Origin: Pseudobdellovibrio sp.
GTDB taxonomy: Bacteria; Bdellovibrionota; Bdellovibrionia; Bdellovibrionales; Bdellovibrionaceae
DNA: 64,000 nt
Assembly (NCBI GenBank): GCA_023701385.1
Contig: JAMPXC010000003.1
Coordinates: 62,001-126,000 of the forward strand
Direction: 5' to 3'
The position numbers were made by a program, and so were the translations under genes. The notes beneath the pieces were generated by a model. That model saw only the letters and a program-made list of their open reading frames with translations, was not told where the DNA came from and did not search any database. Positions 6,670 through 45,904 of this stretch are shown piece after piece (position 1 is the first letter of the stretch; every line of letters starts with the position of its first letter).

Positions 6670-9228
6670 CTAATTCAACTGCTCTTGCCATTTAGCAATT
6701 TGATTTAACGCCTGTAAAGGTGATGTATTTGAGATCGAAAGCTGTTTTAGCTCATTCATCAGCGCTTCAGCTTTTGGATCAATGGCAGGCTTATCAAACA
6801 GCGATAACTGGTTTGTAGCTTTCACTGGTTTTTCAGTTTTTAGCGAAACTGCACCCGTTGGTTGATTCACCGGTGCACCTAACACAACTTTTTTATTTTC
6901 TAAATTCACTAATAACGATTTTGCACGTTCAGTGATTGATTTAGGTAATCCCGCAAGCTCTGCCACTTGAACCCCGTAACTTTGCCCTGCCGGACCAAAA
7001 TTTAAGATATGCAAGAATTCAATATTACCACCGTGATCGTGAATTTTCATATGCACGTTTTTAACTTGGGTAAAAACTTGATCCATCGAAGTTAACTCGT
7101 GGTAGTGAGTCGCAAAGAAAACCTGAGATTTCACGTTATTTAAAATATGTTCTAAAATACTCTGCGCTAAACAAAGACCATCAAACGTAGCTGTGCCACG
7201 ACCGACTTCATCTAAGATTAATAGTGAATTAGGCGTAGCTTGTTTTAACATTAAAGCCGTTTCAGTCATCTCAACCATGAATGTTGATAGACCTTCACTT
7301 AATTGATCACTCGCCCCGATACGCGTAAAGATAGAATCGTATAACGGAAGCGTGGCTTCTGTAGCTGGAACATATGATCCCATTTGCGCAAGTAACGCCG
7401 TTAAAGCCACTTGGCGCATTAATGTCGACTTACCGGCCATATTCGGACCAGTAATTAAATAACAATCATTTTTATCAAGCGTGATGTTATTAGCGACGAA
7501 TTTTCCGCGCTGGAATTGCTCAACAACCGGATGACGAGATTGAATTAATTTTAATTCACCTGCGCCAGTAAATGCAGGACGACAGTAGCTTTCTTCTAGA
7601 GATAACCACGAAAGACCGCTTAATACGTCTAGCTCAGAACAGTAGCTGGCAAGCTTTAATAATTCACTCGCTGTATTTAACACTTTAGTTCTTAAAGCAT
7701 CAAAGATCGCAAATTCTAAATCATTACGTTTAGTTTGCGCCGAAAGTACTTTTTTCTCAAGTTCAATCAATTCATCAGTACAAAAACGTTCAGCATTCGC
7801 CAGAGTTTGTTTACGCTGATAATGGCTGGGCACTTTATCTTTATGTAAATGAGTAATTTCGATGTAATAACCAAACACATTATTATAACGAATTTTAAGC
7901 GAATTAATACCCGTCGCTTCTTTTTCTTTAGCTTCTAATTTTTCAATATGCGATTGAGCATTTGTTGATAACTCAATTAACTCATCAAGTTCTGGTGATA
8001 CACCTTTTTGAATAATAAAACCTTGTTTTAAAGTTAATGGTGCATCTTCTAAAACTGTTGTTTTAATTTCATTAACTAAAGCATTTAACACATCGGTGTT
8101 AACCTTAGAACCTAAGATGTTTTTAGATTTTTCAAAAGCGTCTAAAGCATAACCCACTGAAGTCGCAAGACTTGTTAAATCACGCGCATTACATTGCGGT
8201 TGAGCAATCTTAGACATACGACGTTCGATATCGCCCATACCAGATAAGATTTCGCGAAGTTTTTTAAGCAAGTACATATCTTCACGAAAGAAATGAATCA
8301 GATCTAAACGCTTTTCAATCGCTTGTTTGTTACGTAACGGAAATAAAATCCACTGACGTAATAAACGTGCACCTGAAGAAGTTTTTGTTCGGTTAATCGC
8401 TTGAAATAAAGAACCCTGATCATCACCCTTGTAGGTTGAGAAAATTTCTAAGTGACGAAGCGTTTGTGATGAAAGATTTAGTCTGTGTTCAGTTTCACGT
8501 TGTACAAACGGCTGTAAAACTTTTTGAATTTTATCATCAGCAAGACTTAAGACATATTGCTGTAATAAATCAGCTGACGCTGGTACATCGCTTAAAACTT
8601 TTTGACCGGCTTTAAAGTTTGTAACTAGTGCTACATACTTTTTGATCGTTTCAAGTTGTTCTGCATTGTATTTTGATTCATCAAGTACAAGTTCAGCGAC
8701 CGGAAGGATTTGAATTAATTTTAATTGCGCGGCCAAATCACCCACTAAAAAGTAAAACGCTTCACCTGTTGTTGAATCAATAAAGCTTAACGATTCGGAA
8801 TCAAGACCTGTGATGTAATGGCTTTGTGAAGCCTCTAACGTATCAGAATCATAAACCATACCTGGCGTTAAGATACGAGTGACCGCGCGTTTTACTAATC
8901 CCTTAGCTAATTTAGGATCTTCAACCTGATCACAGATGGCAATCTTAAGACCTGAAGCTAAAAGTTTATTAATAGGGCCTGAGATTGAATGGTGAGGCAC
9001 ACCACACATTGGTGTTTGATCTTCAGATTTTTTATTTCTTTGAGTTAACGTAATTCCTAAAATCGGTGCAGCCTTAACAGCATCGTCATAAAACATTTCA
9101 AAAAAATCACCCATACGGAAAAGCAAAATCTTATCCTGATGAAGAGATTTAATATCCCAAAACTGTTTCATTAGTGGGGTATGTTGCTTCTGCAACTGCG
9201 TTGTCAAGTCGCCGTCTTTTTTAGCCAC
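6670..9228 (-). CDS. mutS: DNA mismatch repair ATPase MutS
   Basis: MutS recognises mismatched bases and recruits the repair machinery. The 852-residue length matches the E. coli protein. The mismatch-probing Phe-x-Glu motif is Phe42-Phe43-Glu44 in RMGDFFEMFYDDA. The C-terminal ATPase has the Walker A GPNMAGKST near residue 595, the Walker B region DEVGRGTATFDG and the ATHYHELT motif. The tail carries the short Pro- and Lys-rich linker and a final helical dimerisation patch. The start is GTG at 9228, with AGAGG 7 bases upstream. It is transcribed alone or after the acetyltransferase gene, which ends 108 bases upstream. No mutL is present in this window. Confidence 0.98.
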   Translation of the reverse strand: MAKKDGDLTTQLQKQHTPLMKQFWDIKSLHQDKILLFRMGDFFEMFYDDAVKAAPILGITLTQRNKKSEDQTPMCGVPHHSISGPINKLLASGLKIAICDQVEDPKLAKGLVKRAVTRILTPGMVYDSDTLEASQSHYITGLDSESLSFIDSTTGEAFYFLVGDLAAQLKLIQILPVAELVLDESKYNAEQLETIKKYVALVTNFKAGQKVLSDVPASADLLQQYVLSLADDKIQKVLQPFVQRETEHRLNLSSQTLRHLEIFSTYKGDDQGSLFQAINRTKTSSGARLLRQWILFPLRNKQAIEKRLDLIHFFREDMYLLKKLREILSGMGDIERRMSKIAQPQCNARDLTSLATSVGYALDAFEKSKNILGSKVNTDVLNALVNEIKTTVLEDAPLTLKQGFIIQKGVSPELDELIELSTNAQSHIEKLEAKEKEATGINSLKIRYNNVFGYYIEITHLHKDKVPSHYQRKQTLANAERFCTDELIELEKKVLSAQTKRNDLEFAIFDALRTKVLNTASELLKLASYCSELDVLSGLSWLSLEESYCRPAFTGAGELKLIQSRHPVVEQFQRGKFVANNITLDKNDCYLITGPNMAGKSTLMRQVALTALLAQMGSYVPATEATLPLYDSIFTRIGASDQLSEGLSTFMVEMTETALMLKQATPNSLLILDEVGRGTATFDGLCLAQSILEHILNNVKSQVFFATHYHELTSMDQVFTQVKNVHMKIHDHGGNIEFLHILNFGPAGQSYGVQVAELAGLPKSITERAKSLLVNLENKKVVLGAPVNQPTGAVSLKTEKPVKATNQLSLFDKPAIDPKAEALMNELKQLSISNTSPLQALNQIAKWQEQLN

Positions 9229-9336
9229 GTTTTACCTCTGAAAAAATACCAATAATTAGGTGTAAAAAAGGGTATACGAAGTTTCAATTTAATTAGACGT
9301 ATTTAAGCGGTTTTTTGCTATGCGTATTTTAAGTGC

Positions 9337-9804
9337 TTATTTTAAAGGCTTAATCATCTCAACTTGCTGAGGAATAAAGCCTAATTTCACATTAAAATTG
9401 ATCATTTTTTGGTTTGAATAATAGACCTGAGTGCTGATAAGTTTTGCGCCTTGGCTTTTGGCCCATTCTTCGCCCCGTTTTTTAAGCTCAGAGCCGATGC
9501 CATTTTTACGGTAATCATCGTGAACCCAAAGCGAATCAATATTGGCGCGCAGTTGATTAAATTTTTCTTCTAGCTTTAGCCAGTGAAGACCGATCACTTC
9601 TTGCTTTTGGTTTTTAGCCACCATGATCCAGGCTTTATTTCCTAAAGATAGATTTTTTAAATAATCTACCCAAAATAAAACACGCTCATCGGTGACTTTG
9701 TAGTGTGGGTCCCAATTAAGTGGCGCACTTTCATGAATGTACGCGGCAGATCTTAACTCGGCCTCATCATTGATGTTTAAAAGCGAGTACTTAATATCTT
9801 TCAA
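9337..9804 (-). CDS. GNAT-family N-acetyltransferase
   Basis: This 155-residue protein has the acetyl-CoA-binding motif A of the GNAT fold: IDSLWVHDDYRKNGIG at about residues 89-104, with Arg99-x-x-Gly-x-Gly104 forming the pyrophosphate loop. A following helix and a final strand with the NVKLGF element (about residues 134-139) complete the fold. Such enzymes transfer acetyl from acetyl-CoA to an amine on a protein, antibiotic or metabolite; the substrate cannot be read from the sequence. It starts 7 bases after the stop of mpl on the same strand and probably shares its transcript. Confidence 0.88.
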   Translation of the reverse strand: MKDIKYSLLNINDEAELRSAAYIHESAPLNWDPHYKVTDERVLFWVDYLKNLSLGNKAWIMVAKNQKQEVIGLHWLKLEEKFNQLRANIDSLWVHDDYRKNGIGSELKKRGEEWAKSQGAKLISTQVYYSNQKMINFNVKLGFIPQQVEMIKPLK

Positions 9805-9811
9805 AGATTAT

Positions 9812-11239
9812 CTACCCCAAAGCGGCAAAAAGCTTTTGATAAATTCCGTCAAAACCACCATTCGACATAATTAAAATCACATCTTTTGGTTTTGCTGTTT
9901 GTTTTAAGTATTTAACGATCTCATCAGCAGATGCCATCACATGGGCAGGTTTATTTTTCTTTTTTAAATCATCAACTAATTCAGCTGAAGAAAAACGATC
10001 TGTTTCAGAAATCTTACCTTGATCAAACGCTTCAGCGATAATGATTTCATGACTTTCCGAAAACGCATCCACGTAATCTTTTTGAAACACTTTACGACGA
10101 GACGTCGCTGAGCGTGGTTCAAATACCGAAAACACTTTTCTAGTTTTATATTTATTCTGAATCGCCATAACTGTTTCTTTAACAGCTGTTGGGTGATGCG
10201 CGAAATCTTCGATCACTAAAATTCCGCCGGGTTCACCTAAGATATCCTGGCGGCGCTTAACACCGGCAAAAGTCGATAGACCTTTCATTACGCCATCTAA
10301 TGGAATTTGATTTGCGTAAGCTTGGACTACAACCGCTGTGGCATTTAAAATATTATAACGGCCCGTCATCGTCGTCACAAAGTCAGCTAATTTTTCGCCG
10401 TTATGAGTGACTGAAAACTTCGTGTAACCTTCAGTTTCTTCTATAATTTCACAGACAAAACTATTTGATTTACCAAAGCCATATGAAAATTTATTTTTAA
10501 TTTTGCAGTGATCAGCCACTTCGCAAACGTTTTTATCATCACCCCAGAAAACGAAATTTCCATTCTCAGGAATAAGCTTCATTAAACGTAAGAACGCAGC
10601 TTTAACCGCTGCGAAATCTGCATAGATATCAGCATGGTCAAACTCAACCGAAGTTAAAATCACATTACGTGGACGGTAGTGAATAAATTTAGGAACTTTA
10701 TCAAAGTAGGCTGTATCGTATTCGTCACCTTCAATAACAAACACATTCTGCTTTGGATTTCTAAAACTTTGTGAAAAGTTTTTAGCAATACCACCAATTA
10801 AAAACCCTGGTTCAAAACCTGCTTGATCTAAAACCCAAGACATAAGTGATGTCGTCGTGGTTTTTCCGTGCGTTCCAGAAATGACGTACGAAATGCGATC
10901 ATCAATGATAAACTCGCCCATCGCTTGTGGCAGTGAACAAAACGGAATATCAAGTTTAACCATCTCTTGCGCTTCTTCGTTGTTGGCTGAAATAACGTTA
11001 CCAACAATCACGAAGTCTGGCTTAGTTGTTAAATTGTTTTTGCTGTAAGGTTTTTGAATCTGAATGCCTAAGCTTTCTAATTGTGTCGACATCGGAGGAT
11101 AAGGATTTGAATCACTTCCAGTAACTTTATAACCTTTATCTTTTAATAAACCAGCTAACGATGCCATAGCTGTTCCGCAGATTCCCATTAAATGAACATG
11201 AGAACCCGGCTTGATTGATTTTAAACTTGATTGAGCCAT
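9812..11239 (-). CDS. mpl: UDP-MurNAc:L-Ala-D-Glu-meso-DAP tripeptide ligase Mpl
   Basis: Mpl reattaches a murein tripeptide, recovered from wall turnover, to UDP-N-acetylmuramic acid, bypassing three Mur ligase steps. It belongs to the Mur ligase family but has the Mpl-type N-terminus: LMGICGTAMASLAG at about 17-30 and TGSDSNPYPPMSTQLE at about 40-55. The ATP-binding loop GTHGKTTT lies at 122-129, and a later EDFAHHPTA motif marks the C-terminal half. The length of 475 residues suits the family. The enzyme is cytoplasmic. The next two genes upstream encode a cytoplasmic serine hydrolase and an LD-carboxypeptidase, which together look like a wall-recycling operon. MurC is the nearest alternative, but the PPMSTQLE stretch argues for Mpl. 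Confidence 0.93.
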   Translation of the reverse strand: MAQSSLKSIKPGSHVHLMGICGTAMASLAGLLKDKGYKVTGSDSNPYPPMSTQLESLGIQIQKPYSKNNLTTKPDFVIVGNVISANNEEAQEMVKLDIPFCSLPQAMGEFIIDDRISYVISGTHGKTTTTSLMSWVLDQAGFEPGFLIGGIAKNFSQSFRNPKQNVFVIEGDEYDTAYFDKVPKFIHYRPRNVILTSVEFDHADIYADFAAVKAAFLRLMKLIPENGNFVFWGDDKNVCEVADHCKIKNKFSYGFGKSNSFVCEIIEETEGYTKFSVTHNGEKLADFVTTMTGRYNILNATAVVVQAYANQIPLDGVMKGLSTFAGVKRRQDILGEPGGILVIEDFAHHPTAVKETVMAIQNKYKTRKVFSVFEPRSATSRRKVFQKDYVDAFSESHEIIIAEAFDQGKISETDRFSSAELVDDLKKKNKPAHVMASADEIVKYLKQTAKPKDVILIMSNGGFDGIYQKLFAALG

Positions 11240-11273
11240 ATCTAAATCCTTTTAGATGAGTTGTATGTAAAAA

Positions 11274-12332
11274 CTAAATTGTACGTTTAATCGCTTCGTA
11301 AATCCAAGAGTGGATTTGCGGTCTAAGCTGAACATAAGCGCGGTTTTCGCGGCCGTAGTTAACGCGATTACTTAAAGCTACTACTAATAAATCTTGGCGT
11401 GGATCATACCAGAACGAAGTTCCCGTAAATCCCGTGTGGCCAATAGAATGAATCGAGAAGTGGGGTCCGCAGCTGGCATTTTCAATTGATGGCATCATGT
11501 ATCCCATCGCCCAATCACCCGCTTCCTGATCGATGGCGCGCGCTGCAAATAGCTGAGCTGTCTTTTGTTTGATTTTATATCGAGCAATACCGTGAAGCTG
11601 TGAACGTAAATTTAAACCAAAAGCGGCCACATCATCGATTGACCCGAAAAGACCTGCATGCGATGAAATACCACCTAAAGCCCACGTGTTTTCATCGTGA
11701 ACTTCACCGCGCATCACTTTGTGACGGAACGGGCATTCTTCTGTCGGTGCGTACTGCGAAATATCATTCAATGGCACATTATCGATATGAAAATCCATTG
11801 AAGTTGTTGGGTAAAAATCGTTTTTAGCATCTTGCCAAACCTGAAGAAGATCTTTTTTATAAAACGCTTCAAGTAAAAAACCTAAAGTCATAAAACCAAG
11901 ATCTGAATAGACAGCTTTACCCGTTTGTTTTAATTCAGTTTTATTAATTTCACGGAACAACCACAAACGTTTCGTCTGCCAAGTGTCGTTTAAGCGAATG
12001 TCTTTATAAAAAGGTCTCCACCACTCAAGACCAGAGGTGTGAGTTAAAAGCTCAGTGATTTTTATTTGATCAAAAGCAAAATCAGGTAAAATGTCTTTTA
12101 CTTTGGTTTCTAAATTCCAAAGCCCTTGATCATAGGCACGCATAATACTTTGCTGCGTGAAGATCACTTTCGTTAAAGACGCTAAATCATAAATCGGATA
12201 AGTCTGACCAACTTGCACGTCACAGATCATACGCCCGTGATGATAAGCCCGCACAACAACTCCAGGAGTCACGTCCTGAATAGCGGTTTGTAGTTTTTCA
12301 ATTAAAGCTCGTTCAATACTGTTATGGCGCAT
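11274..12332 (-). CDS. Cytoplasmic serine hydrolase, class C beta-lactamase/PBP4* fold
   Basis: This is a 352-residue member of the beta-lactamase-related serine hydrolase family (Pfam Beta-lactamase type). The SxxK nucleophile motif is Ser52-Leu-Thr-Lys55 in YDLASLTK, the second motif is Tyr142-Ser-Asp144, and the third is the HTGFTG loop near residue 298. LLTHTSGLEWW at about 95-106 is a family hallmark. There is no signal peptide, so it should work in the cytoplasm, unlike most relatives. It lies between mpl and an LD-carboxypeptidase gene and overlaps the latter by 11 bases. That context suggests it acts on recovered muropeptides, for example as a peptidase or esterase, but this is inference. 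Antibiotic resistance is unlikely for a cytosolic protein. Confidence 0.88.
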   Translation of the reverse strand: MRHNSIERALIEKLQTAIQDVTPGVVVRAYHHGRMICDVQVGQTYPIYDLASLTKVIFTQQSIMRAYDQGLWNLETKVKDILPDFAFDQIKITELLTHTSGLEWWRPFYKDIRLNDTWQTKRLWLFREINKTELKQTGKAVYSDLGFMTLGFLLEAFYKKDLLQVWQDAKNDFYPTTSMDFHIDNVPLNDISQYAPTEECPFRHKVMRGEVHDENTWALGGISSHAGLFGSIDDVAAFGLNLRSQLHGIARYKIKQKTAQLFAARAIDQEAGDWAMGYMMPSIENASCGPHFSIHSIGHTGFTGTSFWYDPRQDLLVVALSNRVNYGRENRAYVQLRPQIHSWIYEAIKRTI

Positions 12333-40989: not shown

Positions 40990-41406
40990 GTGAAAAAACT
41001 TATTCTATTTTTATCGCTACTTTTAATGACTCAGCTGACGGCGGCAACGATCAGTCGCTACAACCTCTGTCGTGTGTGGTATTCTTTCGATATTTTTCAG
41101 ACTTACCTTAATTTATCGGTAGACCTTAAAGGGCCTACTTTAATTATGGATCAACACATTCCCTACGGGATTCGCCCTATGAGAAATGACATTACCCAGA
41201 TTTCTTGTGACCACGAGACCACAACCCTTCAAATTTCTGCAAAGAACGGCTTTAATCAGGATATTCGCTTTGGGTTCAAGTCCCAAGGAGAGTATCAAAC
41301 CCAGTCAGGCACCGTAACCTATCTAGATCCTAAGGGAAATCCCTCAAACTCTAAAGACTGGGAATGCTCTCTGGATGCGGTTAAGAAGCTGTGCCTGGAA
41401 TTATAG
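40990..41406 (+). CDS. Small secreted protein, unknown function
   Basis: This 138-residue protein starts at a GTG with a G-rich leader and has a clear signal peptide (KKLILFLSLLLMTQLTAA, cleavage near residue 19). The mature part has four cysteines that could make two disulfides, and about a third of it is beta-like (YSFDIFQTYLNLSVDL, DIRFGFKSQGEYQT). It is not a recognised family. It follows rny after about 88 bases and precedes the DUF4956 operon by 147 bases; the direction is the same, but the spacing does not show whether they share a transcript. Confidence 0.62.
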   Translation: MKKLILFLSLLLMTQLTAATISRYNLCRVWYSFDIFQTYLNLSVDLKGPTLIMDQHIPYGIRPMRNDITQISCDHETTTLQISAKNGFNQDIRFGFKSQGEYQTQSGTVTYLDPKGNPSNSKDWECSLDAVKKLCLEL

Positions 41407-41553: not shown

Positions 41554-42237
41554 ATGTTTGATTTCGGCGTTTTAAACTCAACCACAACCCATCTCAGCGA
41601 ATTCTCGATTCTTTTTGCCTTCTGCTTATCATTCGTCATGGGCTGTATGATTGCCTTTACCTACATTAAAACTTTTCGTGGCCTTTCGTATTCACGTAAC
41701 TTTATTCACTCCTTAATCCTAAGCCCGATCGTCACAGCGATTGCCATGCAGGCCATTGGCGATAACGTTGCCCGCGGTATCGGTATGATGGGGGCGGTTT
41801 CATTACTGCGCTTTAGAACTAATATTAAAGACCCGCGCGATATGTTTTTTATCTTCGCTTCGCTGGCATTGGGTCTGGCAGCGGGTGCGCACTCATACAT
41901 TATCGCTGTCTTTGGAACCATCGCGTTTGCCGTTGTGGCTGTGATTCTTCACAAAACACCTTTTGCTAACGAGACTTATTTTGATGGTCTTTTAAGACTT
42001 AACTTGGATAAAAGCGGCGACGATGTGCGTGCTTTAGAAAAGCTTTTAAGCGATAGTTGTTCGAATTTTTACTTACTTAACGTGCGTGAAGTCGCTCAGG
42101 GTGACCGCGTAGACTACACTTACCAAATTAAATTTAAACCAGGAAAAACATCACACGAGCTTGTTGTTCAAGTTCAAAAACTTCCATCGGCTAAAGCTGT
42201 CAATGTGATGATGCAAGAAACCGTTGTGGATTTATAG
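41554..42237 (+). CDS. DUF4956-family inner-membrane protein
   Basis: This 227-residue protein has about four membrane helices in its first 135 residues (about 17-37, 52-68, 97-113 and 115-132) and a soluble C-terminal domain of about 95 residues. The family motif SLLRFRTNIKDPRD (about 83-96) sits between helices, as in other DUF4956 proteins, whose function is unknown. From memory, DUF4956 genes are often neighbours of VTC-domain genes in bacteria, and a VTC gene is present here at 45128. It heads a four-gene run with the adaptor, TolC-like and VTC genes; the adaptor starts 8 bases later. It is the best candidate for the inner-membrane core of the set. Confidence 0.9.
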   Translation: MFDFGVLNSTTTHLSEFSILFAFCLSFVMGCMIAFTYIKTFRGLSYSRNFIHSLILSPIVTAIAMQAIGDNVARGIGMMGAVSLLRFRTNIKDPRDMFFIFASLALGLAAGAHSYIIAVFGTIAFAVVAVILHKTPFANETYFDGLLRLNLDKSGDDVRALEKLLSDSCSNFYLLNVREVAQGDRVDYTYQIKFKPGKTSHELVVQVQKLPSAKAVNVMMQETVVDL

Positions 42238-42245
42238 GATGTAAT

Positions 42246-44030
42246 ATGAAACAAGTCACAAGCAAGAATCATAATTTAATTTTCGCATCGATTATCGGGG
42301 CTATTGTCATCTGCGCTTTGCTGTACAATTCAATCCGCGTAGAAAGAATCGGTTTTTTAGGAATCGCCGATTCAAAAGAGTTACAAATCAACTTTGAATA
42401 CCCGGTTGAAGTTAAACGTATTCACGTGATTCAAGGTCAGAACGTGCGTAAAGGCGATTTACTTTTAGAACTTGATCAATCCGAGCTAAACACAAAAATT
42501 CGCGAAGTCGAGTTCAACATGAACCGTCTTTCGTCAGAGATTAAATTACGTAAGCAATTTGCCCGCATTATTCCTAAGTCTTCTAAAGCAGCCTTTAAAA
42601 ACGCTGGCGAATTCACTAACCCGTTACAATCTGAATACGACGATTTAGTTAAAGAAAAAGATTACTTAGAAAAAAAGAAGAAAAACCTTTATGTCTTCTC
42701 ACCGGCTGATGGTGTTGTTGGACAAATCAATTTTAAGGTTGGCGAAAAAGTTGGTGGCTTTGCCACTTTAATGACTTTAGCTAACAGTTCTCCGACATTT
42801 GTTACCGGCTTCATTAATGAAAGTCTTGATGTGACTTTAACTGAAGGCCAACAAGTTAAAGTTCGCTCAGCCGCTCGTCCTGATGTTACCGCAACAGCCG
42901 TCGTTAAAAGCATCGGCCGCAGAACTGTTGAAATGCCGTTACGTTTATTAAAATACCAGAATGTAACGGCTTACGGCCGCGAAGTAACTTTAGCATTGAG
43001 TGAAAGCAATCAGTTCTTGATAGGTGAAAAAGTGGTCGTTGATCCGTCTAAGCCGATCTTAAGTTTTATGGCGATGGCTAAAGCGTCTAAAGGCGAATTA
43101 CTTTCTAGCTTTGAAACTTCAACCCAGTTTTCATTAAAGAAAATGGATATCCCTAATTCACTTTATGAATTAACTAAGTTTGAACCCTCTGGAGCTATTT
43201 GGCTTGCGGACTTAAATAAGTACTTAGTGATCAGCGACGATACCGATGACACGCATTCGCCGCTTTTATTTTTAATGAACCGCGATGGCAGCATTGATAG
43301 CGCTCCGTTAAAAGTGTCTGGTCTTTCTGAAATTATGGATATCGAATCAATCGCCCAAGACGGTCAATTTATCTATCTACTGTCTTCACAATCTCGCAAC
43401 TCGAGTGGTGATGTTAAAAATAACCGTAGTTTAATCGTTAAGGTTAAACGTGTAGGTTTAGAATTAACTGCTGTATCAAGCTTTCAATTACGCCCGCTTT
43501 TAATGGAGGCTTTAAGTAAATCTAAAAACACAGAATTAAATACTTTAGCTTTAACTATTCAATCTGGCACTGTTAAAAACGGAGACCTTGATATCGAAGG
43601 TATGACTTTGGTTGGAAACGATATCTTAATCGCTTTAAAATCTCCGCACAATTCGTCAGATGAAAGCTACATCCTACGTTTAGCGAATAAAGACTATATT
43701 TTTACGAACAAATACTTTCATGCATCACAAGTGTCGGTTGAGGCTAAATTAAACTTTCATGGTAAAACTGAAACTGATGAAAGTAATAAAATGGGCTTAA
43801 GTGATTTAGTTTACGCTAATGGCATATACTACCTTTCTACAACATGCAAAAAAGCCAACTGTTCTGCACTATGGAAAACTTCAAAGCTTGATAGCGACCA
43901 CCTTAAACTTTTAAAAACGTTTCCGGTTAACCAGCTAGAGGGTATTGCCCTTGGGCATGCTAACGAAATCCTTGGTGTCTTCGATGAAGGTAAGAGCGAA
44001 CCTTATTATTTTATCAATGAAACACACTAA
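42246..44030 (+). CDS. HlyD-like membrane-fusion adaptor fused to a propeller-like domain
   Basis: This 594-residue protein is a natural fusion. The N-terminal half has a membrane anchor (about 11-28), a lipoyl-like domain (VEVKRIHVIQGQNVRKGDLLLELDQ, about 54-78), a coiled-coil hairpin (about 80-145) and the closing lipoyl and beta-barrel parts (about 150-265). These are the parts of an HlyD/EmrA-type adaptor linking an inner-membrane pump to TolC. The second half (about 290-594) has repeated strands such as YLVISDDTDD, SIAQDGQFIYLLSS and LVYANGIYYLSTTC. They recall beta-propellers of the esterase-like phytase or DUF3616 type, though not closely. No pump gene is adjacent. It overlaps the next gene by 14 bases. 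Confidence 0.82.
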   Translation: MKQVTSKNHNLIFASIIGAIVICALLYNSIRVERIGFLGIADSKELQINFEYPVEVKRIHVIQGQNVRKGDLLLELDQSELNTKIREVEFNMNRLSSEIKLRKQFARIIPKSSKAAFKNAGEFTNPLQSEYDDLVKEKDYLEKKKKNLYVFSPADGVVGQINFKVGEKVGGFATLMTLANSSPTFVTGFINESLDVTLTEGQQVKVRSAARPDVTATAVVKSIGRRTVEMPLRLLKYQNVTAYGREVTLALSESNQFLIGEKVVVDPSKPILSFMAMAKASKGELLSSFETSTQFSLKKMDIPNSLYELTKFEPSGAIWLADLNKYLVISDDTDDTHSPLLFLMNRDGSIDSAPLKVSGLSEIMDIESIAQDGQFIYLLSSQSRNSSGDVKNNRSLIVKVKRVGLELTAVSSFQLRPLLMEALSKSKNTELNTLALTIQSGTVKNGDLDIEGMTLVGNDILIALKSPHNSSDESYILRLANKDYIFTNKYFHASQVSVEAKLNFHGKTETDESNKMGLSDLVYANGIYYLSTTCKKANCSALWKTSKLDSDHLKLLKTFPVNQLEGIALGHANEILGVFDEGKSEPYYFINETH

Positions 44031-45138
44031 ACTACTTCTTACACTTCTAAGTTTAGTCGCGGTTAAAGCTTATGGCTTTCAATCACCGTTTAAAGATGCG
44101 CAATTAAGCGTTGCGAATAAAGACTTAGAAGGCCAAACTTACGAATACGCCTTAAAATTTAAACTTTTTGGCTATGAAGAATACCAAAAATGGGGAAAAG
44201 TGCGTGAGATCGACTTGCGCTTTAAATCCCTCAATAGCCAGTTTATCAATTCAGAAACAGATCTTAATAACATTAAAAGCTACATTCAGGCATTAGATGT
44301 AAAACAAAAGCAAAAACAATTTCAAGACTACAATAAATGGATGAGTAAGTTTCGCGATACACTGACGGCAACTTATGAAAATTCAGATACCGATGTAAGC
44401 ACAGTCATGAAAATCATCGCTCAAGACGAAGAAAAACAAATCATGGGTCTTGAGCTCAATGAACAGAAAAACGAACTAGTTCCATTACTTGCACAAATGC
44501 GGATGACTTGGGAGCAAGTTCCTGGCGAAGCGGCTCTTAATGTTAAAAATATTCATAATCTGATCGATTCATTTAGCACGAATTATTTAGCAACCCAGTC
44601 AGCGAAATCTTACGATCTGTATTCAAAATTAGCTATGGCCGAATACGAATACAACCGCGTTGAAGACACCGCGATTTTTGATGGCTTTGAAGTAGTTTAT
44701 GAAAAAGACTACGAAAAAGATAACGACAAAGGCGCTTACGGCATTAAGGCGGTATTTAATTTAAATTTCTTACGTGAATCTAAAACGTTGTATTATTCTG
44801 ACCGATACAACCTGCAAAGAAAGCTATTAACTGAAAGAACAAATACACAAACGCGAGCTAACGAACTTAAAAACATTAAAGAAACTCTTAAACACGATAT
44901 CGAACTTGTACAAGAGCTGCAAAAATCCAGCTTTAAAGAAGATAAGTTCTTAAACAATAAAAAGAACATCTATAACGTGATTGATCTGCAAACGATTCAA
45001 AGCTTACAAAAAAATAAGTACGAAAAGAACTCTAAGTTAGTTTCTCTTAAAACTTCTATTTTAGAGAAAGTTTTAACATTGATGTACGAATCTGAACGTC
45101 CGCTGACACTCGTTGAGCTTAGAAAGTATGTCAGATAA
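44017..45138 (+). CDS. TolC-like outer-membrane efflux component (putative)
   Basis: I use the ATG at 44017, which begins a good signal peptide (MKHTKLLLTLLSLVAVKAYG) and gives 373 residues; longer in-frame starts lie inside the previous gene. The mature chain is largely long coiled helices with a short beta-like element near residues 225-245 (GAYGIKAVFNLNF). A C-terminal half follows with the pattern NVIDLQTIQSLQKNKYEKN-, then LKTSILEKVLTLM, like the second helical hairpin of TolC-type proteins. The barrel strands are not obvious, so it may be a shortened TolC or a periplasmic coiled-coil partner. It sits between the adaptor and the VTC gene, overlapping the latter by 11 bases. Confidence 0.65.
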   Translation: MKHTKLLLTLLSLVAVKAYGFQSPFKDAQLSVANKDLEGQTYEYALKFKLFGYEEYQKWGKVREIDLRFKSLNSQFINSETDLNNIKSYIQALDVKQKQKQFQDYNKWMSKFRDTLTATYENSDTDVSTVMKIIAQDEEKQIMGLELNEQKNELVPLLAQMRMTWEQVPGEAALNVKNIHNLIDSFSTNYLATQSAKSYDLYSKLAMAEYEYNRVEDTAIFDGFEVVYEKDYEKDNDKGAYGIKAVFNLNFLRESKTLYYSDRYNLQRKLLTERTNTQTRANELKNIKETLKHDIELVQELQKSSFKEDKFLNNKKNIYNVIDLQTIQSLQKNKYEKNSKLVSLKTSILEKVLTLMYESERPLTLVELRKYVR

Positions 45139-45904
45139 TCAAGCTGGCGTTTCGCCCCTATTCTTTGAACGTTATGAGATCAAATATTTGATCCCTTACC
45201 GCTTAGTTGATCCTATCTCAGAATACGTTAAAGCTTATTGCGATATGGATTATTATTCTGAGATTTCACCGGATAGCTTCTATACTATTAACTCTTTATA
45301 TTTAGATTCACCGGTTCATACGTTTTACCATAACAGCGATGGCGTTAACCCTAAACGTTTTAATATGCGGATTCGTTCGTATGGTGATGATCCAAAACCA
45401 CCGTATTTTTTTGAAGTTAAAGAAAAAACAGCAGACTTTGTGAAAAAAAGCCGCGCCAAAGTTAAAACGGCAAATATTCAATCTGTCTTAGAAGGCACTT
45501 ACAATCCTGAAGATGTTGATATGGGCTCAAAAAAGAACCTGGATAAGTTTTTAAGCTTCGCTCAAATTTACAATGTTCAACCGCAGGTTTTAACCCAGTA
45601 CCGCCGCCGCGCTTTTTTATCAAATGTAGAAGATTACGTGCGCATCACGTTTGATGTGGATTTAAAATGCAAAGAAGAAAACACTTTCAACCTTTGGCCT
45701 AATCCCCGCGAAATGCTGAGCTATGATTCATCGTTAATTTTTGATGACGGCGTAAGTAATGAAAGTCTAGCTATTCTAGAGCTTAAATGCGAAAGCCGTG
45801 TGCCACTCTGGTATTTAGATTTAATCCGCGTCTTTGAATTAGAACGCGGATCATTTTCTAAATATGGCAACTCTTTAGAACGAGCAACCAAGCTATATCT
45901 CTAG
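45128..45904 (+). CDS. VTC-domain protein, polyphosphate-polymerase-like
   Basis: This 258-residue soluble protein is a VTC domain, which in yeast Vtc4 is a triphosphate-tunnel enzyme that makes polyphosphate from ATP. The tunnel residues are visible: E-x-K in ERYEIKYLIP (Glu17, Lys19), Arg residues in RFNMRIRSYG, Lys and Glu in FEVKEKTADFVKKSR, the basic run in TQYRRRAF, and the acidic strands ITFDVDL and LAILELK. The C-terminal FSKYGNSL is also typical. I place the start at the ATG at 45128, inside the end of the TolC-like gene. Catalysis is plausible but not proved. The gene converges on purM with a 4-base overlap. Confidence 0.92.
   Translation: MSDNQAGVSPLFFERYEIKYLIPYRLVDPISEYVKAYCDMDYYSEISPDSFYTINSLYLDSPVHTFYHNSDGVNPKRFNMRIRSYGDDPKPPYFFEVKEKTADFVKKSRAKVKTANIQSVLEGTYNPEDVDMGSKKNLDKFLSFAQIYNVQPQVLTQYRRRAFLSNVEDYVRITFDVDLKCKEENTFNLWPNPREMLSYDSSLIFDDGVSNESLAILELKCESRVPLWYLDLIRVFELERGSFSKYGNSLERATKLYL

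Follow-up and report, generated by a model that had tools for sequence, protein, structure and literature searches.

A conserved gene cassette joining DUF4956 and VTC-domain proteins to a periplasmic adaptor and a TolC-fold protein in Bdellovibrionota and Fibrobacterota

The window analysed here is a 64,000-nucleotide stretch of a 3.18 Mb genome whose relatives are Bdellovibrionota. Four plus-strand genes, A to D, lie together at 41554-45904 of the window, with spacings of +8, -14 and -11 bases (Table 1). Gene C starts at the ATG at 44017, giving a 14-base overlap with gene B, and gene D starts at the ATG at 45128, giving an 11-base overlap with gene C. The gene order and spacing reported in the preliminary description of this DNA match the open reading frames exactly. 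An RNase Y-like gene, an MFS gene (about 2.3 kb upstream) and a small ORF with no Pfam family over the cut-off lie 5′ of these genes, and genes that read as purine biosynthesis follow on the opposite strand; the cassette therefore stands alone. A scan for promoters and terminators gave fewer sites than were found in shuffled sequences.

Table 1. Positions of the cassette genes and of features at this and related loci
Feature	Location	Strand	Description
Gene A	window 41554..42237	+	membrane protein of 227 aa (DUF4956), candidate for the inner-membrane channel
Gene B	window 42246..44030	+	periplasmic adaptor, residues 1-270, fused to beta-propeller, about 290-594
Gene C	window 44017..45138	+	signal peptide and divergent TolC-fold outer-membrane channel, 373 aa
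Gene D	window 45128..45904	+	VTC / polyphosphate polymerase domain, 258 aa
Small ORF	window 40990-41406		directly 5′ of the cassette; 138 aa, GTG start, apparent signal peptide
A, B and C genes	L070 3014-6764		Bdellovibrionota; no VTC gene after C
Adaptor-like, DUF4956 and TolC-family genes	L118 3760-6997		Hymenobacter volaticus plasmid NZ_CP095062.1
CotH kinase-like and LTD genes	L109 1542-3146; L111 7411-8976; L116 1344-2909 and 7827-9359		flanking the cassette
CotH-family matches	C71:52676-53620; C12:19174-20019; C75:23705-23833		window genome, other contigs
Large secreted protein	L049 769-7857; L055 3992-7939; L054 1820-5419		also directly after D in L069, L071 and L072
PPDK_N protein	L051 5801-7891		about 110 bases upstream of DUF4956
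DUF4956 and VTC genes of the non-cassette type	L025 and L026, about 8000-12300		neighbours, judged by eye: a UbiA-like gene and a large RND-like membrane protein

Gene A belongs to the Pfam family DUF4956 (PF16316), with an E-value of 8e-13 and a score of 48.9 bits against a cut-off of 30.6. It also shows a weaker resemblance to MgtC, below the Pfam cut-off. The protein had been described as having four helices. Three clear hydropathy peaks were seen (residues 17-35, 50-68 and 114-132); a fourth helix was not shown by this crude scan, and the four-helix description remains plausible. The family has invariant arginines, R86 and R88 in gene A (LRFR motif), which would suit an anion path. A DUF4956 profile found no clear relative among the PDB sequences. 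Gene A is 52-58% identical to its cassette relatives. A quick tree groups the DUF4956 genes of the cassettes together with support 99, as a clade apart from other DUF4956.

The product of gene B has the architecture of an HlyD/MFP adaptor, with membrane anchor, barrel-sandwich, alpha-hairpin and beta-barrel. It matched the Pfam families HlyD_D23 (PF16576, 3e-10) and HlyD_3 (PF13437), and its profile matches in the PDB were MacA and EmrA. An AlphaFold2 model (pLDDT 86.8) contained one N-terminal helix, the barrel-sandwich, the beta-barrel and a hairpin (30 and 21 residues), and Foldseek placed EmrA, MacA and MexA adaptors best (top E 2e-12). The second domain that had been claimed for this protein proved to be a C-terminal beta-propeller. 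Its closest solved structures in VIA-align were E. coli YjiK (Z 20.9) and then human Ca2+-activated nucleotidase (Z 18.2), and relatives of the propeller match DUF3616 or Phytase-like; the fold that it shares with YjiK and the nucleotidase gives no function on its own. The motif R-x3-L-x6-S, the RLS-type motif by which adaptors dock to TolC, is absent from the hairpin of the window protein, and matches to it outside the hairpin fall mostly in the lipoyl part. We know of no demonstration that this motif is needed by all adaptors.

Gene C of the window matched no family in Pfam or NCBIfam, including Pfam OEP. Its counterparts at two Fibrobacterota loci (L102 and L103) pass the OEP cut-off. In an AlphaFold2 model (pLDDT 81.5, pTM 0.70) strands and long helices occur in two repeats, as in the TolC fold, where a strand-strand-helix unit occurs twice. 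In Foldseek, the 44 highest-ranking PDB chains were without exception TolC-family outer-membrane channels (best E 2e-10), and the structural match to TolC had a Z-score of 21.6 over 349 residues, compared with 8.8 for the first unrelated chain. The modelled fold bears out the earlier claim of a TolC-like protein, and a signal peptide is present. Structure prediction had been proposed as a check on both envelope proteins, and it returned an adaptor fold for gene B and a TolC fold for gene C. When window gene C alone was used as a phmmer query, no counterparts were found. This gave a first impression of non-conservation, which was dropped once position and profiles had recovered the counterparts. 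These are 13-18% identical to window gene C; the gene evolves fast.

Gene D matched Pfam VTC (PF09359) with an E-value of 5e-47, and a profile of 19 VTC proteins (gene D and relatives) aligned with yeast Vtc4 over nearly its full length (E 5e-23). A VTC domain with its tunnel residues had been recognised here before, and the comparison with yeast agrees: all ten Vtc4 positions compared (K200, R264, R266, K281, R361, R373, E426, K428, S457 and K458) are kept in gene D, as K19, R81, R83, K98, R160, R172, E218, K220, S244 and K245. Substitution of R264, R266 and E426 inactivates the yeast enzyme (PMC9911596). Hydropathy gave no membrane segment in gene D, and its product is probably cytoplasmic. 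The window genome has PPK1, as do 72 of 80 relatives, and the idea of gene D as a substitute for a missing PPK was therefore rejected. Polyphosphate can therefore be made without the cassette, and gene D would serve a separate pool. No biochemical data or activity for bacterial VTC or DUF4956 proteins were found in the open-licence literature.

To measure conservation, a profile of cassette-type DUF4956 was run on 369 Bdellovibrionota genomes, 58 of them matching at E <= 1e-10. The scores fell into two well-separated groups, with 38 places at E <= 5e-79 and the rest at 6e-42 or weaker, and the cassette group was defined by this score before the neighbours were read. Thirty-one of the 38 loci were testable, having at least 3.9 kb downstream of DUF4956. 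Genes B and C follow DUF4956 in 31/31 of these and gene D in 30/31; contig ends truncate the remaining seven, which match the A-B-C-D order as far as the sequence reaches. In Fibrobacterota the cassette-type DUF4956 gene was found in 105 of 168 genomes (E <= 1e-20), all but one of the matches being at 6e-69 or better, and the order A-B-C-D was present in all 19 loci read as a sample. At more distant, weaker DUF4956 loci, B or C was found in 0/22 and a VTC gene nearby in 16/22, and several had CotH-like neighbours. The gene order is therefore not due to chance. These counts are of loci, not of independent events, because near-copies occur among them. Eighteen relatives among the 80 genomes compared have a DUF4956 match over the cut-off, and each of them has VTC as well. 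A wider scan across phyla used two peptide patterns and missed the Fibrobacter type, so that its cover of other phyla was uneven.

The adaptor and TolC-like genes are thus kept beside DUF4956 and VTC in relatives from two phyla, as the preliminary description had expected of a true system, and its statement that no pump is present also holds across relatives. None of the loci read contains an ABC, MFS or RND subunit inside the cassette, and no such family recurs with the cassette across lineages. The sole transporter among the most recurrent flanking families is an ABC-type ATPase gene, found in six Bdellovibrio-type loci only. The MFS gene upstream of the window cassette was considered as the missing pump, but the recurrent flanks listed do not include its family. 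The anatomy and conservation of the cassette are well supported.

Some loci depart from the full arrangement. At L070, the sole testable Bdellovibrionota exception, A, B and C are present and C is followed by no VTC gene. A contamination of 9% is given for the genome of this locus, which contains further DUF4956 genes. On the Hymenobacter volaticus plasmid, in a third phylum and with a gene order unlike A-B-C-D, an adaptor-like protein, DUF4956 and a TolC-family protein (OEP 5e-41) occur in that order. The adaptor-like protein is annotated as hypothetical and has a weak NCBIfam HlyD match (6e-6), and no VTC match was found among the neighbours tested. This plasmid suggests that DUF4956 can accompany an adaptor and TolC without VTC. 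From both loci it follows that VTC is not strictly required. In most Fibrobacterota loci gene B is an adaptor alone, without the propeller. In L109 the propeller is a separate gene matching Phytase-like, and in L108 and L116 it appears fused to the adaptor. The propeller is therefore an add-on.

The flanks of the cassette vary between lineages. In Fibrobacterota a CotH gene lies 5′ of gene A in L109, L111 and L116, and in most loci a lamin-tail-domain (LTD) protein or lipoprotein follows gene D. The cassettes with CotH and LTD flanks give the impression that two forms of the VTC system meet there. No CotH gene was found near the window cassette, and CotH is lacking in the majority of the sampled Bdellovibrio genomes that bear the cassette; three CotH-family matches lie on other contigs of the window genome. 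A family of large secreted proteins, of about 1150-1300 aa, flanks the cassette in several lineages, with several Halobacteriovorax-type loci carrying it either before A or after D, and has extra copies in many Bdellovibrionota genomes, including two in the window genome. These proteins have conserved D/N-rich motifs reminiscent of kinase loops. They matched no Pfam family over the cut-off and gave no clear PDB match, and a relationship to CotH was unsupported (hhalign probability 0.1%). On a contig titled Fibrobacteres, L051, whose phylum is Fibrobacterota, a protein with the ATP-binding domain of pyruvate phosphate dikinase (PPDK_N, 4e-19) lies upstream of DUF4956.

These features are best read as export across the envelope without a conventional pump. 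On the cytoplasmic side of the inner membrane, gene D would use nucleoside triphosphate to build polyphosphate, and the growing chain would be threaded through an oligomer of the DUF4956 protein. The adaptor would join this oligomer to the TolC-like duct, which would open outside the outer membrane, so that a polyanion would be made inside and moved across the envelope. In the periplasm, the propeller may bind the product, trim it or anchor it. DUF4956 is the candidate inner-membrane partner because, apart from the anchor of the adaptor, the cassette has no other conserved membrane protein, and adaptor and TolC need such a partner; the Hymenobacter gene set strengthens this assignment. The driving force would be chain growth itself, as has been suggested for the yeast VTC complex, in which cytoplasmic synthesis is coupled to membrane translocation (PMC9911596). 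By analogy, synthesis-coupled translocation may be the energy source of the cassette, which would explain the missing pump. We infer the physical assembly, the DUF4956 channel, the polyphosphate cargo, polymerisation as the energy source and the role of the propeller.

The four products probably act as one trans-envelope assembly. To the whole reading, a pumpless assembly that exports polyphosphate, we assign a probability of roughly 0.4. It is favoured by the A-B-C-D order in two phyla, the folds of B and C, the kept tunnel residues and the lack of a recurring pump. Against it are the docking motif missing from the B hairpin, the fast divergence of C, the occurrence of A-B-C without D and the presence of PPK1.

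The same assembly might carry another cargo. DUF4956, adaptor and TolC would then export or position a surface polymer or protein, and the phosphate polymer made by VTC would donate phosphoryl groups for surface phosphorylation, carried out by CotH kinases or others, or would regulate it. The CotH genes before three Fibrobacterota cassettes and the LTD lipoprotein after D in most of them fit this explanation, as does the Hymenobacter gene set with no VTC match nearby. CotH, polyphosphate polymerase and DUF4956 genes adjoin Pel operons in streptococci, clostridia and bifidobacteria (PMC7112168), and in Streptococcus intermedius, mutations in the CotH gene and in the four-helix gene of one such locus alter Pel level and aggregation (PMC12345266). 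However, CotH is missing from most cassette-bearing Bdellovibrio genomes, and neither a glycosyltransferase gene nor any other cargo gene is recurrent next to the cassette. Another cargo seems rather unlikely, though it is the strongest competitor of polyphosphate export.

In a conventional arrangement, an MFS, ABC or RND pump encoded elsewhere would complete an ordinary tripartite exporter with B and C, and A and D would be an independent pair in the same operon. This would agree with the general rule that adaptor and TolC require such a pump. Candidates could be seen in the upstream MFS gene of the window and in the ABC-type ATPase gene flanking six Bdellovibrio-type loci, but neither family recurs across lineages. 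In the loci read from two phyla, moreover, B and C occur only with cassette-type DUF4956 (0/22 otherwise), and we consider an unlinked pump improbable. Least probable of all is a device for uptake or turnover, in which a phytase- or nucleotidase-like propeller and gene D, acting as a tunnel phosphohydrolase, would degrade external phosphate polymers and the duct would import. The nucleotidase is the second-best structural relative of the propeller, the separate propeller of L109 matches Phytase-like, and tunnel enzymes accept and act on widely differing substrates (PMC4641920). YjiK is nevertheless the closest match of the propeller, and gene B lacks the propeller in most Fibrobacterota loci. 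For YjiK we know of no hydrolase activity, and known adaptor-TolC assemblies work as exporters.

If polyphosphate export is the function, the cassette would be, to our knowledge, the first adaptor-TolC system driven by polymer synthesis. We hold it possible, with slightly less confidence than the export reading itself, that it represents a new class of tripartite envelope machine with a polymerase as engine instead of a pump, and that some Gram-negative bacteria have dedicated polyphosphate secretion to the cell surface. We know of no dedicated machine to which the delivery of polyphosphate to the outside of bacterial cells has been assigned, nor of a function for the widespread DUF4956, VTC and CotH loci. 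A conserved operon that joins DUF4956 and VTC to an adaptor and a TolC duct offers a concrete, testable hypothesis. It is found in Fibrobacterota and in relatives of Bdellovibrio, many of which are predators.

The cassette shares the adaptor fold and the outer-membrane duct fold with MacAB-TolC and EmrAB-TolC. It differs from them in having no ABC, MFS or RND subunit, in the propeller borne by the Bdellovibrionota adaptor, and in that the docking motif was not found in the B hairpin. With the eukaryotic VTC complex (Vtc1/Vtc3/Vtc4; PMC9911596) it has in common the VTC tunnel domain, the same catalytic residues and a membrane partner, and the coupling of synthesis to translocation in that complex is the model borrowed here. 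The cassette has DUF4956 in place of the Vtc transmembrane domain, however, lacks an SPX domain and has two membranes to cross. The Gram-positive Pel loci resemble it in having VTC and DUF4956 side by side. Their link to CotH is absent at the window cassette but present at L109, L111 and L116. Those loci, as described, have neither adaptor nor TolC (PMC7112168, PMC12345266), whereas most cassettes here have no CotH and no adjoining Pel genes, and their DUF4956 forms a separate clade. The open-licence literature on bacterial VTC, DUF4956 and polyphosphate export via TolC contained no description of this combination and no paper with an adaptor and TolC version, in line with the initial impression that it is not a described system. 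The cassette consists of known parts in an undescribed assembly and, should the mechanism be demonstrated, could represent a new exporter class.
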